A stretch of 64,000 bases of DNA from Porphyra umbilicalis (taxonomy: Eukaryota; Rhodophyta; Bangiophyceae; Bangiales; Bangiaceae): NCBI GenBank assembly GCA_002049455.2, contig KV919027.1, positions 46,965 through 110,964 on the forward strand. The letters are read 5' to 3'. The notes under the pieces are model-generated. The model was not told where the DNA came from. It was given only the letters and a program-made list of their open reading frames with translations, and did not search any database. A program made the translations under genes and the position numbers. This document shows, one piece after another, positions 10,769 to 52,183 of the stretch. How positions within the stretch are numbered: the stretch's first letter is position 1; every line of letters begins with the position of its first letter.

Positions 10769-12557
10769 CTAAATCCGGACAGCCAGATCACTGCGGAGAG
10801 AGTGGTGTTCCACTGCGTCCGTCCCACGACCCCATGCCGCCAGCATATGCCCAAAGCTGCCCGAAAAAGGGGCCGCAAGGGCGAGCACGCTGCGCAAGGT
10901 GCTGCTTGGCATAGGACCCAGGATTCCCTCTGTACCTCCGCCGCTACCGGTCGAGCCTGGCGGCCTCACATCCACACCATCGACACCGTCCTCGCTGGCA
11001 GCTGGCGGACCCCCGCCCGCACCAGCTTCCCCCCCGCCCCTGCTGATAGCGGGCGGCGCCCCACCAGCACCACCTCCACCGCCGCGGCCGCCCGTCGTGG
11101 GTGGTGACACCCCCGCACTACCCCCCCCGCCTTCCCTGCCAGCAGCGAGTGGGGCTCCGCCCATACCCGCACCATCCAGGTCATCACCGCTACCGCAGAT
11201 GGGCGGCATGCGACGCCCATCGCATCCGCTTCCGATTTTGCCGGCGGTCGGCAGCGCGCTATTCGTGCCTGACCCTGTGACATATCCGCCCCCGTCGCCG
11301 TGGACGCCCCCTCCGTCGCAGTCTCCGGTCCCTCCGCCAGCGCACCCTCCATCACCCACATCGGCTGCCGGTGCCACACTCACAGGGACACCCCCAGCGG
11401 CAGGCCGGGCATCACTTCGATCGGCGTAAGACGCCGACTGCGGGCGTGAACCGTAGCCGTTCCGTCGTAGAACGATGATCATGTAGTGCATAATCGCCAT
11501 TGCACGGGCGGTGGTCACGATGTTGGCCATGTAGAAGTCCCGGGCAGGGCCGAGCGCCACGAGGAAGCGAACGGTCATTACAGCGTACAAGCGCTGGACA
11601 TCTTTGCGCAACGCTTCTTGTAGACAGTTGAATGCCCGTTCCACGGACGTCAGAGGGATGGGGTACGGAGCCCCAAAGAAGGGGTACTTCCGGTACATGC
11701 CGTCCACGAGGTTGAGGGGCAGGGTGCAGGGCCGGGCGTTGATGGAGAATGGGCGAGCAGGAGGCCAGACACCTGCACACACGTCAGAAAAAAGAGGCAA
11801 AATATCCAACACATTTAAGTCATTCACGGAACCGGGAGCACAGGAAAAGAAGTGGTGAATGTAAATGTGCTCATCACAAGTGGTCTCCATCACAATACGG
11901 CAGGTCCCGAGGCGGTCTTGGTACGCTCCCGCGTGCCCCTTGGGAAGTGCTGCCCACTGCCAATGACAGCAGTCGAAGGACCCAATGCAGCCAGGCAGGC
12001 CCCGCTCCTCGTTGCGCGCCGAGATGACCCGGCACTCGTCAATCGTCGGCTTGCGCAGATAGGTCGAGTGATAGCGCTGCACAATCGAGCGCATGAGGCG
12101 CCCCACGGCCCTTCAAATGGTCTAGCCCAAGAGGCGGACGTACTCGTCAGCACGGTCTGCTGCCTCTCCGTAGACGAGCACCCGCAGCGCGCCAAAGATC
12201 TTTTGAAGAGGGTGTGCCTGCAGCTGTTCCGTTATGTTTATTTGCTGCTGGAAGATCGGTTTGTCCTTCGCATCATCGTCGAGTCCATAGAACAGCACCC
12301 GTGGCATGCGGAACCGGCGCTCAAAGTCCGCCTCGTCGTAGATGGGCGGCAGCCCGTGCAAGCCACAGTAGTCGCGCATTATGTTGTGAACGCCTGAGCA
12401 AGTGTCGCAGAGCTCGTTTTGACGTCACCCACGGCTAGAGCCACCCGTCCTTGCCCGTAGGACGAGACTGGAGACAGCCGCCGGCCGGTGTAGACGGATG
12501 CTCTGCTCGAGCCACCGCAATCTCATCGTCATCGTGGTCAATCTCCGACGGCGCCAT
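10769..12557 (-). pseudogene. PIF/Harbinger-type transposase (copy 2), catalytic Glu replaced
   Basis: Second transposase of the same family, on the minus strand. The likely start is ATG at 12,557 (MAPSEIDHDDDE). The N-terminal block MRDYCGLHGLPPIYDEADFE follows with a frame interruption (stop at 12,435), and then two stops (TAG, TGA) lie at 12,107-12,124 in the same frame as the catalytic part. That part is uninterrupted from 12,106 to 10,769. It carries GCIGSFDCCHWQW (first Asp), GSVNDLNVL (second Asp) and VDGMYRKYPFFGAPYPIPL. At the position of the catalytic Glu, where copy 1 has KDAERMY, this copy reads KDVQRLY, so Glu has become Gln. A Gly-rich tail of about 200 residues follows. Inactive as read. 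It is more intact than copy 1, so probably a younger insertion of a related subfamily. Confidence 0.85.
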
Positions 12558-28799: not shown

Positions 28800-29439
28800 C
28801 GCCTTTTCCATAGCCTCTGTAGTGCGTCTTGTCTGTGTAAGTGGGTGTAGGTGAGAGCGTACGCATATTGAGATAGAGGGACGGTATTAATGCTGACCTC
28901 CAAAAAATGGTGGTTGCAGAGTGGTTGCAATCATTCGACAGCGTACGTGGACCAATGGAAAGGCTAGAAATCATGCGAGTTCCTTACACAGTCTCATCAT
29001 GCAGCTGTGCGCACTGAAAACGCTCATCAGGATCTCAAGAAATCTGAAGAAGTTTGTTGATCTCATGAGAAAACACAGGTCTGGCCCAGAACCCTCTCCA
29101 TGCCCTCTCCTGGACCAAGCAAGCGGCCCAAAAATCTCAGGAAATCTCATTGTGGGTTGCAATGGCTCTGCGTGACTGGTGCAAGACACGCTGATTGGCT
29201 TACAAGATTACTGGCGGCAACTCTCAGCCGATAGTTCGATCGTGGCTTGTCGAACAGCCACTCCGACATCTTTTCTATGACGTCGGCTTTGCCTCCCTTC
29301 TCTCTGCAACCGCCCATTTTTGCAGGTTAGCAATAGATATTCGAAACCTCGGCTGGCAGGACATTCGAATCCCTTCCAAGTTCGACCGACCCGTCCTCCT
29401 GCGGCTCCTGGGAGGGGTAAACTATAATTCTTTGTTGTA
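28800..29439. other. Region without a recognised gene
   Basis: Moderate-GC intergenic sequence with short open frames on both strands. Variants of 'tctcaagaaatct' and 'tctcaggaaatct' occur three times near 29,030-29,150, but no structure is clear. Confidence 0.4.
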
Positions 29440-29571
29440 CAGCCGATCTCCCAAAAATCCCGCACTGCAACTGTCCCCAAAGTTTTCCATATCGGCCTCT
29501 ACGTGGTCGTAGAGGCTGATTTTGAACTCTTTTGCCACAGGTGGCATGCGGACATTTTGGGAGAACGGCTG
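29440..29571. mobile_element. Foldback MITE, 132 bp, TA-flanked (copy 1)
   Basis: Starts CAGCCGATCTCCCAAAAATC and ends with the reverse complement type GAGAACGGCTG, flanked on both sides by TA (29,438-29,439 and 29,572-29,573). The two arms pair over most of their length, meeting around cggcctctacgtggtcgtag. Length and sequence match the copy at 51,383-51,514, although the arms here have more mismatches, so this copy is older. A TA target duplication and CAG-type termini suggest mobilisation by a Tc1/mariner-type transposase encoded elsewhere. Confidence 0.85.
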
Positions 29572-29573
29572 TA

Positions 29574-35514: not shown

Positions 35515-36470
35515 GTTGCTCTAAAATTCCCTGGACTTTAGTCTAGGGTGCTTTCTCACACCCACACGTCGAAAAAAAGTCCTTTTTTCTAGTGCACGTT
35601 GCGGGAGTACTTAAACAAACGTTTTTGGCGGTCCGTTTGGCTCCCTACGCCGTTGGAGGACGTCCCCCGGCGCTTTCTTGACTATGGGAACATGCACCGG
35701 GGCTGCCCGCACCTTTCTGTGAAGTTGCTAGAGGTGGCGACGTCTTCATCGTCCGTACGGTCCGCGGAAGCAGAATCGTGGTTAAAAAGGTGCGTGAGGG
35801 CAGGTGCGGCGTTTACGGGGTCGTGGGGGTAGGTGGGCGCGGCCACGAACGGCCGTGATGTCGCAATTCCGCGGTAGTTGGCCAGAATGGGGCTCTGCGG
35901 GCCCTGTGGGAGACGTCGGTTTTGATTTTTCAAATAGGGGGTCGTGTCGGCGCCGAATGCGCTGCGGCCTGCGTGGTCGCGTCCCTTCCCGCAACACCCG
36001 CGCGCGGCGGGTGGGGGCGGCGGCCACCGCCGCTGGCGGTGTTGCCGCCGCGCCTGCCGCCGACGCGGCGGTGAGCAGTGGACGACCGTGCGCACGACGC
36101 GCGCCCGCACACGGCAGCGAGTGGCGCCCGCGGCCGCGGCGGCCGCAGCCGCGGCGGTGCCGGCGGCGGCGGCGGCGGCGGCGTGGCGCCCCTGCTATTT
36201 TCTCGCTCCACCCCGCCGCCCGCCCCCCCGTGCCATCGACGGCTTCTTCCCCCCCCTCCCCCTCTGGCCCCACATACCCCCCCCTCCCCATCTACCGCGT
36301 CGCCGCTGCGCACGTGCGCATCGCGCAGCTCGGCCTCGAGTCTGCGCTGCGGCAAGCGACGACTGCCCATCCAGCGTCGGCCGGTGGTTGCTCGAATGGT
36401 GGCGGCAGTGCCTCGGTGGCAGCCGCCGCCCGCCACGGCGGTGGCGGCCGCTGCTGACCCTCCGGTGGGT
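35515..36470. repeat. Duplicated segment, copy A (intact TA site)
   Basis: Collinear with 51,255-52,290. Shared landmarks in order are 'ccctggact' with a short imperfect palindrome, 'agtgcacgttgcg', 'gagtactt', 'cttgactatgg', a near-perfect block 'ggtggcgacgtcttcatcgt' continuing 'ccgtacggtccgcgg', 'gtggttaaaaaggtgcg', and after a gap the GC-rich block 'ggcggcggccaccgccgct' with 'gcctgccgccgacgcgg'. The TA at 35,646-35,647 is the unoccupied version of the site where copy B carries a 132-bp MITE. It is likely a dispersed repeat or non-autonomous element; I could not define its ends. The minus strand of both copies reads ADRTDDEDVATSS in one frame, perhaps a coding relic. Confidence 0.7.
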
Positions 36471-37204
36471 GCGGCAGGAGCCCCTCGCGGCGATCACCTA
36501 CCCCCCCTCGGACGAAGACAAAATCGCTGGTCGTCGAGGAGCGTGCGGGCGGCCGCTCTCCACCAGTGGGCGGGTACCCCCCCGACGGCAGCAGCTGCCG
36601 CTCGTGCGGGCCGCGGTGGACGCCGCGGCGGCGGTGGGCGGAGCGCCCCCTACGCCAGCAAGCGGTGGTCACGTCGGCGACCGCCACCACCGCCGCCATG
36701 GCCGCCTTCCTCGTCTCCTTTTTTCTGATCTCCCGCTCGTACGTGCGCTCCCAAGCGGCGCCGGTCGTGCAGGTGACGCTCACCCGGGAGGCGGTGCTCG
36801 ACTTGCCTATGTATCTTTCGTCGTGTGAAAACAGTTCTATCGTTTTACAAGTCCAGGGTGTTTTCGCGAACGCGCTTTCAGTGCGAATATGCCATCTATA
36901 CTGATAGTGTAGACACTGTGGAAAAGCGGGGTCGAATATGGCCCAGTACAGCCATTTCAGACGTACTGGCACCAATCTGAAAACCGCCGGGATAAGTCCC
37001 CAAGTAGCGTGGTACCGTTTCGCGACGATGGAAGTAAGGAACGTTGCTAAATTGCAAGTAACCTCGGTTTTTTGTGTTACTTACTCGCTAGGTGTGTTAC
37101 TTACTTCCTTGCACCCGAACACCCATCTGTCAGGCGCCGCCGCCAGCGCCCACCACACGCTGCCGCATTCCTCCGTCCTCCGCTCTCTGCACCCACTGCG
37201 GGTG
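36471..37204. other. Region without a recognised gene
   Basis: GC-rich to about 36,790, then AT-richer. Near 37,072-37,110 'gtgttacttactc' and 'gtgttacttacttcc' form a short direct repeat about 130-190 bases before the MYND gene start, a possible but unproven promoter element. Confidence 0.4.
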
Positions 37205-46184: not shown

Positions 46185-46865
46185 CTATAAGATGGAGGTT
46201 GTAGAGAAAGGATTCACAGATACGGGGGTGGGGGGGGGAGAGAATGATTGCGCGATCAGCCATAGGACTAGCGAGTATGCTGTGGTGGGCAGTGATATAA
46301 AGATGGAAAGGGCGAGCAAGGGAAGGAAGCCTGCCTCGTCGAGGGCGTCGGCGCGGGAGGGGAAGCGGCCGCCGCGGCGCGCGCCAGCGTGGCGCCCGCG
46401 CGGGCCGCCGCCCCAGTCCGTGGCATCGTCCTCCCCGTACGCGTCGTCGTCGACGGCAGCAACGTAGGCGTCCGCGCCAAATGCAGGGACGCCACCGACG
46501 TCGGCGCCGTCACGGGCAGGGGGGATGACATCTCCCCCGCCGGCAGCTGCGACCCCGGGGGCCGCGCCACCCTCCCCAGTGCGCCCGACGGTGGCGTCGG
46601 GGGCGGCGGTGCCGACGTCAGGCGCCGCGCCGCCGCCACCGCCAACTCCAGTTGGCGGTCGCGCCGCGTCAACCGCCGAGGGAGGGGCTGCGGCGGCTGC
46701 GGCATCGTTCTCGGCAATGGTGAGCCGAGCGGACGACAGGGCTGTCTGCGTCTGCGACAGGCCCAACTCGGCGGCAGCCAAGCGGGCGCGCAGTGCGTCG
46801 AGCTCCGTCGCGCCGGTGGTGTCCGCGCCTGAAGGGGGAGGCGTGGAGGGGGAGTCACCGGCCAT
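46185..46865 (-). CDS. Hypothetical coiled-coil ORF next to the retroelement, gag-like
   Basis: The minus strand opens at ATG 46,865 (MAGDSPSTPPPSGADTTGAT), followed by a clear coiled coil (ELDALRARLAAAELGLSQTQ, then TALSSARLTIAENDA), an Ala/Gly/Pro-rich acidic part and a hydrophobic end. Length 226 residues, no named domain. N-terminal Pro/Ser segment plus coiled coil is the layout of many retroelement gag-type proteins. It lies head to head with the reverse transcriptase ORF, about 110 bases away. In a single intact DIRS-type element gag should be on the same strand, so this may belong to a second, truncated and inverted element. Confidence 0.35.
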   Translation of the reverse strand: MAGDSPSTPPPSGADTTGATELDALRARLAAAELGLSQTQTALSSARLTIAENDAAAAAAPPSAVDAARPPTGVGGGGGAAPDVGTAAPDATVGRTGEGGAAPGVAAAGGGDVIPPARDGADVGGVPAFGADAYVAAVDDDAYGEDDATDWGGGPRGRHAGARRGGRFPSRADALDEAGFLPLLALSIFISLPTTAYSLVLWLIAQSFSPPPTPVSVNPFSTTSIL

Positions 46866-46976
46866 GGCGTGCACCCGGGAGTACCGGGTGGAGCGGGATC
46901 ACGAGCCACAGGCAAGCAGCCTGGGAGGGGGGGTATTTCTTGCAAGTCGATGTGCCCACACGACGAGAAGAAATGA

Positions 46977-48530
46977 ACGCTGCAAGACCTCGCCCAGGTC
47001 TTACGACCGGGCGACGCGCTGCTGCAATGGGACGTGCAAGACGCATACCACCACCTGACCCTGCGCCCGGCGGACCGCAATTTCCTCGCGTTCCGGACGC
47101 TCGGCCGCACGTTCATCCCCATCACGATGCCGTTTGGCCTCCGCGTCGCCCCGCTTACATGGACCAAGATCATGCGCCCGGTTGTCCAGCACCTGCGGTC
47201 GCTGGGCTTTCGGATGATTGCGTATGTCGACGACTTTGGCGGGGCGCCGCCGGCGGAGCCGGGCGAGCCCGCGACGGCGCCGCAAGCGACGGCGGCTTAC
47301 ACCCTCGTCGCGGCGCTGTTCCGCCGTTTGGGGTTGCGTCTGCACCCGACCAAGGGAGTCAGCCATGGGCCGACATGCATCCGGCTGCTCGGGCACGTCA
47401 TCGACACCGTCCAAGCCGAGTTCCGGCTGCCGGAGGACCGGGTCGACAAGCTGGTGGCGATGTCGGCGGCTCTGTCCCGCACGGCATCCAGTCACCGCCG
47501 GTGGGTCAATTTCCCGGCGCTGCGCCAGTTCTGCGGCACGGCCGTGTCCACGACGCTGTCGGTCCCGGCCGCCCGCTACCGCCTGCGCAGCCTGTTTACG
47601 GCGCTGCAATGCCGAAACCCACGCAGCGGCGACGCCCGGCTCGGCCACCAGGCCCTGCGGGACCTCTACTGGTGGGTGGAGCTCCAGCGGTGGGCGGCCA
47701 CGGGTCGGGCGATCTGGCCAGGGTCGGCGTCTATGCTCCTAGACACCGACGCCAGCCGCCTCGGTTGGGGGGCAGTGCTCAACCAGGCCGCGGAGGCTCG
47801 CGGCTACCACTCGGCGGACCGCAATGGGCTGCACATCAACTGCCTGGAGCTGGGCGCCATCACCCTGGCGCTCCAGTCCTTCCGAGCGCTCATCCCGGCG
47901 GGCACGGTAATCCGCTTGCGCACGGATTCGATGGTGGCACTCGGAGTCCTGGAGGCCGGCTCTTCCCGCTCGCCGGTGCTGATGGCCCAGTACCGGGCGC
48001 TGCACGAGCTGTGCGACGCGATGCGCGTCGAGTTGCGGGTGGAGCACATCTCCTCCGTGCTCAACGACTGGGCGGACCGCCTCTCCCGAGAGAACGACTC
48101 TACGGACTGGACGTTGAGCAGTGCGGCCTTCCAGCAGCTGGAGCAGCGGTACGGCCCCCACTCGGTCGACCTCTTCGCCACGGAACTCAGCACGCGTTGC
48201 CTCCGGTTTTACGCCCGCCGCCACTGCCCGGGGGCCATTGGCATCAACGCCCTCCGCCACCCATGGGCGGGCGAGAACGCGTGGGCCAACCCGCCCTTCC
48301 ACCTCGTCGGCGCGGTGGTCTACCGCATTGTGGCCACGCGTGCGACTGTCACCCTGGTTGCCCCAGTGTGGCGGGCGCAGCCGTGGTGGCGCGCGGCGGT
48401 GGAGGCGTGCTGGGAGTGGCAGATGTTGCCGGCGGCGGAGGGCGTCTACCCGTGCGATTCGCGGTCGGACGCGGCGCCGCGGGCTTTTTGGCGGACTGCG
48501 GTGTTCCGCTTCGCGCCAACCCCGCTTTGA
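46977..48530 (+). CDS. DIRS/PAT-like retroelement: RT, RNase H and DAM-like methyltransferase
   Basis: Reverse transcriptase with the DIRS-type motifs ALLQWDVQDAYHHLTL (first catalytic Asp), MPFGLRVAPLTWTK and IAYVDDFGG (YxDD box). An RNase H follows with all four acidic positions: LLDTDASRLGWG, NCLELGAI, RLRTDSMVAL, LNDWADRLSR. After it comes YGPHSVDLFATELSTRCLRF and GENAWANPPFHLVG. The NPPF motif marks the adenine-methyltransferase-like domain found after RNase H in DIRS1- and PAT-like elements and not in Ngaro. The frame is open only from just after a TGA at 46,974; the RT N-terminus before LQDLAQVLRPGDAL is missing or in another frame, so this copy is probably 5'-damaged, or the ORF depends on an upstream frame. 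Ends at 48,530, overlapping the recombinase frame. Confidence 0.88.
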   Translation, partial: TLQDLAQVLRPGDALLQWDVQDAYHHLTLRPADRNFLAFRTLGRTFIPITMPFGLRVAPLTWTKIMRPVVQHLRSLGFRMIAYVDDFGGAPPAEPGEPATAPQATAAYTLVAALFRRLGLRLHPTKGVSHGPTCIRLLGHVIDTVQAEFRLPEDRVDKLVAMSAALSRTASSHRRWVNFPALRQFCGTAVSTTLSVPAARYRLRSLFTALQCRNPRSGDARLGHQALRDLYWWVELQRWAATGRAIWPGSASMLLDTDASRLGWGAVLNQAAEARGYHSADRNGLHINCLELGAITLALQSFRALIPAGTVIRLRTDSMVALGVLEAGSSRSPVLMAQYRALHELCDAMRVELRVEHISSVLNDWADRLSRENDSTDWTLSSAAFQQLEQRYGPHSVDLFATELSTRCLRFYARRHCPGAIGINALRHPWAGENAWANPPFHLVGAVVYRIVATRATVTLVAPVWRAQPWWRAAVEACWEWQMLPAAEGVYPCDSRSDAAPRAFWRTAVFRFAPTPL

Positions 48531-49534
48531 GGAACGACGTTCAGCGGTGGGATCTGCTCTTCTCTCGCGTCGCCCGCCCCCTCGTGGCAGACCTGCCCGA
48601 TCCTGCTGCCGCGCTCCGCCTCCTCTCCCGTGGCTACCGGCCCAAAACCAAGCTCTCCTACATGAGCAAGTGCCGCGCCTTCTTCACCTACTGTGCGCGG
48701 CATCGTCGGGACCCGCTGCCGGCCACGTCGGCCACAATGGTCGGCTACATCCTGCACGAGCTGGAACGGGGCGCCTTGGTGCCGCCGTCGCTGGCCAAGT
48801 ACCTGTCGGCGGTGTCGTCATTGCACCGCCTCGCGGGCCACGCCGACCCGGTGAAGGACCCGCTGGTTCAGCTGGCCCTGTACGGCCACCGCGCCCATGC
48901 CCTGGAGGCGGCTGGTGGGGAGCTTGCGCTGCAGCGTATGCCGCTGCCTGCCGCCTTTATCCTTCGCGTCTGTGACCTTGGGCTGGCCACTCCGAATGCC
49001 TTGTTGCGGCTGCAGTGCGCCGGCCTGGTCCTCGCATTCATCCTGTTCAACAGGCCGGGCGCGGCGGCGTGCATGCGGCGCTGCGATGTGCGCTTCACCA
49101 CGCACGGCCTGGAGCTCCAGGTCGTCGACTTTAAGATGGCGCTGCGGACGGGACGGGAGCGCCTCGCGTTCACGGTGCCCATAGACGTCGAGCCGGCCAA
49201 GGTCGACAAGATTGCGACGCTGCTCCGGCTGGTGGTAGCCGCGCACGACGCGGCGGGGCGTGCTCCGGCGGCCATGCTGTTCGCTGACCCGGCCGAGCCG
49301 CCCGCCCAACGACGGTTCTGGCTTTCCGCACGCGTCACCAACGTCTGGCTGCAGCGGTTGCTATGCCTCCTCCCCACCCCGGCGCCCCTTGGGGGCCGCT
49401 ACCAGGGACACTCCTTGCGCAGCGGCGCCGGCACTGAGGCGTACGCCATCGGCTTGCCGCTGCCAATGATCGCGGAGATGATGGGACACGCGTCGACGGA
49501 CACCACCCTCCGCGCGTACGTGCGCACTCGCTAG
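48530..49534 (+). CDS. Tyrosine recombinase of the DIRS/PAT-like retroelement
   Basis: Tyrosine recombinase that in this class integrates a circular cDNA, replacing the DDE integrase. The core-binding part runs from LSRGYRPKTKLSYMSKCRAF to LHRLAGHADPVKDP. The catalytic part keeps every residue: Arg in FNRPGAAACMRR, Lys in VDFKMALRTGR, His-x-x-Arg in GHSLRSGAGTEA, His in MMGHASTDTTL and Tyr in RAYVRTR at the very end. The frame is -1 relative to the RT ORF and has no ATG between the RT stop and the core domain (first ATG 48,662, inside the helix bundle). It is therefore probably reached by frameshifting from RT or by a non-ATG start. The open frame itself extends back to about 46,793, but that part is shadow. 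Intact as read. Confidence 0.88.
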   Translation, partial: RNDVQRWDLLFSRVARPLVADLPDPAAALRLLSRGYRPKTKLSYMSKCRAFFTYCARHRRDPLPATSATMVGYILHELERGALVPPSLAKYLSAVSSLHRLAGHADPVKDPLVQLALYGHRAHALEAAGGELALQRMPLPAAFILRVCDLGLATPNALLRLQCAGLVLAFILFNRPGAAACMRRCDVRFTTHGLELQVVDFKMALRTGRERLAFTVPIDVEPAKVDKIATLLRLVVAAHDAAGRAPAAMLFADPAEPPAQRRFWLSARVTNVWLQRLLCLLPTPAPLGGRYQGHSLRSGAGTEAYAIGLPLPMIAEMMGHASTDTTLRAYVRTR

Positions 49535-51254: not shown

Positions 51255-52136
51255 TGGAATTTCCTGGACTGTAGTACAGGGTACTATACACACCCGCACG
51301 CTGAAAAATAAGTTGCCTTCTCCAGTGCACGTTGCGCGAGTACTTGACCAAAACCGTCCCGGGCGGGCCTTCTTGCGTCCTACAGCCGTTTTCCCAATAA
51401 TCCCGCACTCCAACTGTTGCAAAAGAGTTCTAAATCGGCCTCTGCGGGGTCGTAGAGGCCGATTGGGAACTCTTTTGCAACTGTTGGAGTGCGGGATTTT
51501 TGGGAGAACGGCTGTACGTTGTCCGGCGACGTCCCCAGCTTGTCTCTTGACTATGGAAAGAAGCGCACAGGTCCGCCCGAACATCGTACGAGTTTGCTCG
51601 AGGTGGCGACGTCTTCATCGTCCGTACGGTCCGCGGGAGCAGATCGTGGTTAAAAAGGTGCGAGAGGGCAGGTGCGGTGTTTTCGGGGTCGTCAGGCCGG
51701 GTTGATGGGGGCCGCCATCAACCGCCAAGCGAGGCGGCGGCGGCCGGGGCGGCGGGTCAAGTGGAGTCGACCAGCTCCGCACGTCATCCGCCATGCAATG
51801 CGGAGCTGGAGGTGGGGGGGGGAGTGCGGCCGGGGGCGGCGGCGGCGGCGACGTGTCGGCTGCCGCGCTGGTGACGCCGTCACGGCGGCGGCGGCCAAGG
51901 CGGCGAGACGAGCAGCTTGTGGTGGGCCATGCCGCCCGTCCATTCTTTTCGCGGCCGCCCAGCCGCGCGCCGTGTACTACGCGCGGTACACCCGCGTGCG
52001 GCGGGTGAAGGCGGCGGCCACCGCCGCTGCAGGCGTTGCCGCCGCGCCTGCCGCCGACGCGGTGGTGGGCGGTGGACGACCACGCGTGGGACGCGCGCCC
52101 GCACGCGGGGGCCACCGGCGGCCGCGGCGGTGGCAG

Positions 52137-52183
<47 letters not shown>

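Follow-up and report, generated by a model that had tools for sequence, protein, structure and literature searches.

Question and proposed answer

The window, the 64,000-nucleotide stretch of the Porphyra umbilicalis genome analysed here, has a GC content of 65% and contains two similar segments, at 35 kb and at 51 kb. Twelve phycobilisome-linker matches on eight contigs of the assembly, like this GC content, are in keeping with a red alga. Only the second is interrupted by a near-perfect foldback. What is this foldback, and did it arrive before or after the surrounding sequence was copied? The foldback is very probably one member of a high-copy MITE family. Such a MITE would rely on a TA-targeting transposase acting in trans, and this one inserted into an older dispersed repeat after the subfamily of that repeat had spread.

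Structure and fold of the element

The element is 132 bp long (51,383–51,514, forward strand) and is bordered by a TA on the left (51,381–51,382) and on the right (51,515–51,516), which form the target site duplication; the coordinates in the first-pass annotation were correct. Its ends are CAGCCGTT...AACGGCTG. The inverted repeat spans the whole element, thus terminal inverted repeats are present, and a transposase gene cannot fit between them. Folded together with the right-hand TA, the foldback was predicted to form a single hairpin of −70.9 kcal/mol, against a mean of −16.4 for shuffled sequences (z = −19.3), and none of 200 shuffles folded as well. Against the consensus drawn from the copies read, the window copy agreed at 128 of 132 positions (97%). 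The mismatches in its hairpin are regularly spaced (positions 16, 33 and 50). A family pattern of such spacing was rejected, because of these positions only 33 is mismatched in the consensus.

So strong a hairpin could mark a microRNA-like or antisense RNA gene with no transposon involved, and Rfam matches to MIR5387 and mir-9261 (E about 3e-9) point in that direction. However, all five Rfam matches listed were below the gathering scores of their families, and a long hairpin of whatever origin could give such scores. The numerous dispersed copies, the flanking TAs and the empty sites fit an insertion instead, which makes an RNA gene highly unlikely.

Copies of the MITE in the genome

Searching the genome with the MITE gave 675 candidates. 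The best 40 were scored, and all 40 had the same 132-bp unit. These best-scoring copies, the window copy included, were read together with their flanks. They had the ends of the window copy in common, with few exceptions, for example single changes at loci L010, L018, L029, L030 and L109. The foldback of the consensus is mismatched at four of 66 positions, namely 33 and, close to the tip, 62, 65 and 66. Five of the 40 copies were equal to the consensus. The mean identity to the consensus was 98.3% for the 39 copies without an indel, an upper bound which overstates the youth of the family, because the copies read were the best-scoring ones.

The first-pass annotation had pointed to the whole assembly as the place to look for further foldbacks of this kind, and they were found there. 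Besides the 40 copies read, 465 occurrences of the exact 15-base end TACAGCCGTTCTCCC were counted across the 83.8-Mb assembly, with none for the reversed control. A relaxed 14-place pattern occurred 734 times (control 57). Facing pairs were 131–133 bp long in 17 of 25 cases among the first 100 listed places of the exact end, and in 23 of 30 among the first 100 of the relaxed pattern. Half of the listed exact ends (50/100) and 40 of the 100 listed relaxed ends had no facing partner within 6 kb. Copies with both ends recognizable number, very roughly, 150–200, an estimate by extrapolation and not a count.

The window holds an older 132-bp copy of the same family (29,440–29,571, forward strand), 84.8% identical to the consensus, with a TA on each side (29,438–29,439 and 29,572–29,573). 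Diverged or partial further copies were present at loci L010 and L014.

Target site

A TA was found on both sides in 38 of the 40 copies read, which agrees with the earlier description of a MITE with CAG...CTG ends and a TA target duplication. Among the 39 copies without an indel, 37 had both TAs, one lacked the left TA and one the right; the 40th, with a 1-bp deletion, had TA on both sides as judged by eye. As the first-pass annotation had it, the conserved ends stop at the TA, no further base being fixed among the copies read. The most skewed position was −4, with C in 23 of 39 copies. When the copy with an indel and a single member of a duplicated pair were left out of the 40, C stood at −4 in 22 of 38 (nominal p = 0.0002 for an assumed frequency of 29%, uncorrected for the ~20 positions looked at). 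G at +4 was found in 8 of 38, so that the C at −4 has no mirror image. With an uncorrected p value and no G mirror at +4, we make no claim of a target preference for C at −4.

Ten long open frames of the window were scanned for domains. The frame at 10,769–12,106 on the reverse strand matched Plant_tran (PF04827) with 126 bits, the mark of a PIF/Harbinger-type transposase. A foldback lying in the same window might be taken for a MITE of that group. PIF/Harbinger target duplications are, however, 3 bp long (TWA), and here TA alone is duplicated: position 3 is mixed on either side, with no third duplicated base. A PIF/Harbinger origin is thus extremely improbable.

The host repeat

The first-pass annotation had described the two similar segments as a duplication within the window. 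They did not arise in that way; both are copies of a dispersed repeat. A search with the 35-kb segment gave 41 matches, itself and 40 others at 94–98% identity (best 40 of 213 candidates scored). For the 51-kb copy, searched as a joined site without the MITE, the best 40 of 200 candidates scored were 89–95% identical. Between the 35-kb and 51-kb copies, identity in three pieces was only 75%, 80% and 84%. The two are separate members of the dispersed repeat and belong to different subfamilies.

The copy of the first subfamily (35,527–36,882, forward strand, ~1.36 kb) runs from TTCCCTGG to TTTCAGT, with Helentron-like ends. The copy of the second subfamily (51,260–51,712, forward strand) is the one interrupted by the MITE, and similarity to the 35-kb copy was also found at 51,988–52,180. 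All 30 first-subfamily loci read had the same start point (query 1–3). At the other end, 21 of the 30 agreed to within 2 bases, four stopped elsewhere, and five diverged at ~660 bp into GC-rich sequence. Flanks were different between most of the copies; L067 and L069 shared theirs.

On its 5′ side the host repeat carries a palindrome, borne out by the predicted fold, and on its 3′ side a matching subterminal AAGTCCAGGG. It starts with TT, and in 20 of 21 copies TTTCAG was followed by a T. A CGCG-AA-CGCG 3′ hairpin was seen by eye only; folding the final 60 bases gave a different structure as the optimum. By structure only, the host repeat resembles non-autonomous Helentrons. The Helentron-associated non-autonomous elements HINE/DINE-1 are described as having a palindromic subterminal repeat, T boundaries and a 3′ hairpin (PMC4067079), a structural likeness that concerns the host repeat and not the MITE.

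Empty sites and the time of insertion

In the alignment of 35,515–35,900 with 51,255–51,760 there was one large gap, of 134 columns, located at the MITE beside the shared TA, and every other gap was at most 7 columns. The aligner set the shared TA to the right of the gap, which is equivalent to a two-base slide. The site at 35,646–35,647 in the 35-kb copy, where TA stands once, is therefore a paralogous empty site. Both the place of the gap and the single TA had been predicted in the first-pass annotation.

The relatives of both copies gave the same picture. Each of the 40 alignments scored with the 51-kb joined site ran across the junction with no insert of this size. The ten that were fetched all had a single TA at the site, with 2–4 differences in 67–68 bases. 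In the first subfamily a single TA was present in 30 of 30 loci read, the 35-kb copy included. Because the host relatives examined do not carry the MITE, its insertion is later than the spread of the subfamily: the MITE entered the 51-kb host copy after that copy's subfamily had spread. Of the relative age proposed earlier, an insertion younger than its host sequence stands. The "duplication first" part does not, the order being subfamily spread, then MITE.

Some transposons are capable of precise excision. The foldback could accordingly have been ancestral to the host repeat and have been cleanly lost elsewhere, leaving a single TA. Such losses would have had to occur in 40 of 40 scored close relatives and again in every one of the 30 first-subfamily loci read, and the window MITE agrees with its family consensus at 97% of positions. 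We disfavour this order of events and give it almost no chance.

The foldback is short, has inverted repeats, occurs as dispersed copies of uniform length, and shows a target site duplication and an empty site; it is a MITE.

Mobilization and the search for an autonomous partner

The TA duplication, the CAG ends and the abundance of DDE_3 and DDE_1 domains fit mobilization by the IS630-Tc1-mariner/pogo group. A cut-and-paste, TA-targeting transposase of this group would recognize the CAGCCGTTCTCCC terminal repeats and move the MITE in trans. As the empty sites show, the MITE struck a TA in the older dispersed repeat and duplicated it, after the host repeat's subfamily had spread.

DDE_3 transposase domains gave at least 150 matches in the genome (150 of 359 candidates scored), and DDE_1 domains also at least 150 (150 of 258). 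The Tc1/mariner-type partner with matching ends proposed in the first-pass annotation was sought, and no autonomous element with the MITE ends was identified among the domain matches and end places listed. The first 30 DDE_3 loci had no stretch longer than 13 bp matching the MITE consensus. Because no autonomous element was found, the superfamily assignment is based on the TA duplication and the end sequence only.

Ends with the first 15 bases exact and four set interior positions different were found 11 times, a lower bound from a strict pattern. The best leads to a partner were three of these 11, on C69, C368 and C386, which have 26 of 29 terminal bases in common with the MITE consensus. Sixty-six MITE-like ends on contigs C1–C38, outside the 131–133-bp pairs, were compared with the listed DDE domains: within 6 kb, two had a domain inward and none outward. 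At the density of the 300 listed DDE domains, chance alone would give about 1.4 inward neighbours, so that the two observed are close to chance.

The parent might be a pogo-like (DDE_1) element, with a degraded copy extending from C5:250,009 onwards. An exact 15-base MITE-like end at this place faces a DDE_1 match 2.4 kb away, which lies inside an open frame of 479 codons. However, no opposite end was nearby among the C5 places listed with the exact and relaxed patterns. Four 97% copies of the C5 transposase (C132, C98, C347 and C40) had no such end, in lists complete for their patterns, and the number of neighbouring ends and DDE domains was near chance. The C5 end was rejected as a partner, its position near the domain being probably coincidental, and we judge a pogo-like parent of this kind unlikely. 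There is a similarly small chance that the MITE family is recently active while its autonomous parent is extinct in this genome, its mobility then being due to the transposase of a different family with only ~13–29 bases of the terminal repeat in common.

Elements of the maT type (PMC7325037) as well as Tigger, Lemi, Mover and Fot-like elements (PMC7386202) have been reported in red algae. The window encodes a 913-codon frame (46,793–49,534, forward strand) with a weak Phage_integrase match, below the cut-off, and a Phage_int_SAM_1 match just above it, possibly a tyrosine-recombinase element.

Comparison with known elements

The MITE family is new and of a familiar kind; it was set apart from Submariner, Stowaway and Emigrant by their descriptions. 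Stowaway and Emigrant-type MITEs of land plants belong to the Tc1/mariner and pogo groups; they are short, form hairpins, duplicate TA and reach high copy numbers. Ends of the Emigrant type start with CAG. The Porphyra MITE is like them in length, hairpin, TA duplication and number of copies, and like the Emigrant type in its CAG start. By description, they differ from it in end sequences and host lineage.

Among the descriptions seen, the closest precedent for both the element and the empty-site logic are the Submariner MITEs of Pandoravirus salinus, with a 243-bp consensus, 30 copies and a Tc1/mariner relative in Acanthamoeba castellanii (PMC4495683). Submariner is likewise near-palindromic, has no coding capacity and duplicates TA, and there, too, transposition was proved from a paralogous site that is empty and has TA once (PMC4495683). 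As described, it differs in length, number and genome, with 243 bp and 30 copies in a virus (PMC4495683). The Porphyra MITE measures 132 bp, its exact end is present 465 times in the assembly of a eukaryote, and no partner was identified among the matches listed. Publications on MITEs of red algae did not turn up in a literature search that had most subscription journals outside its reach. Among the 207 plant genomes of one survey are 14 algae, and the words red algae and Rhodophyta do not occur in its main text (PMC12550479).

For a high-copy red-alga MITE family, the results establish where the element ends and which target it uses, and they correct the assumption that a local duplication lies behind the two window copies. 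The insertion is a clean textbook case, in what is otherwise routine transposon annotation.

Further arrangements of MITE ends

On C68, two MITE copies lie ~1 kb apart in opposite orientation (90,342–90,475 and 91,396–91,529). Their flanks are near-identical in the 8 bases shown per side, and the pair is perhaps an inverted duplication carrying the MITE. Exact ends also faced each other over longer distances, enclosing 766–1,655 bp, at C3:719,981–720,830, C16:465,490–466,259, C21:78,438–80,096 and C22:217,191–218,756; these are possibly longer non-autonomous relatives. At C1:758,045–763,034, two facing TACAGCTGTTCCCC ends have a TA-to-TA distance of 4,986 bp, a possible full-length relative of the MITE.
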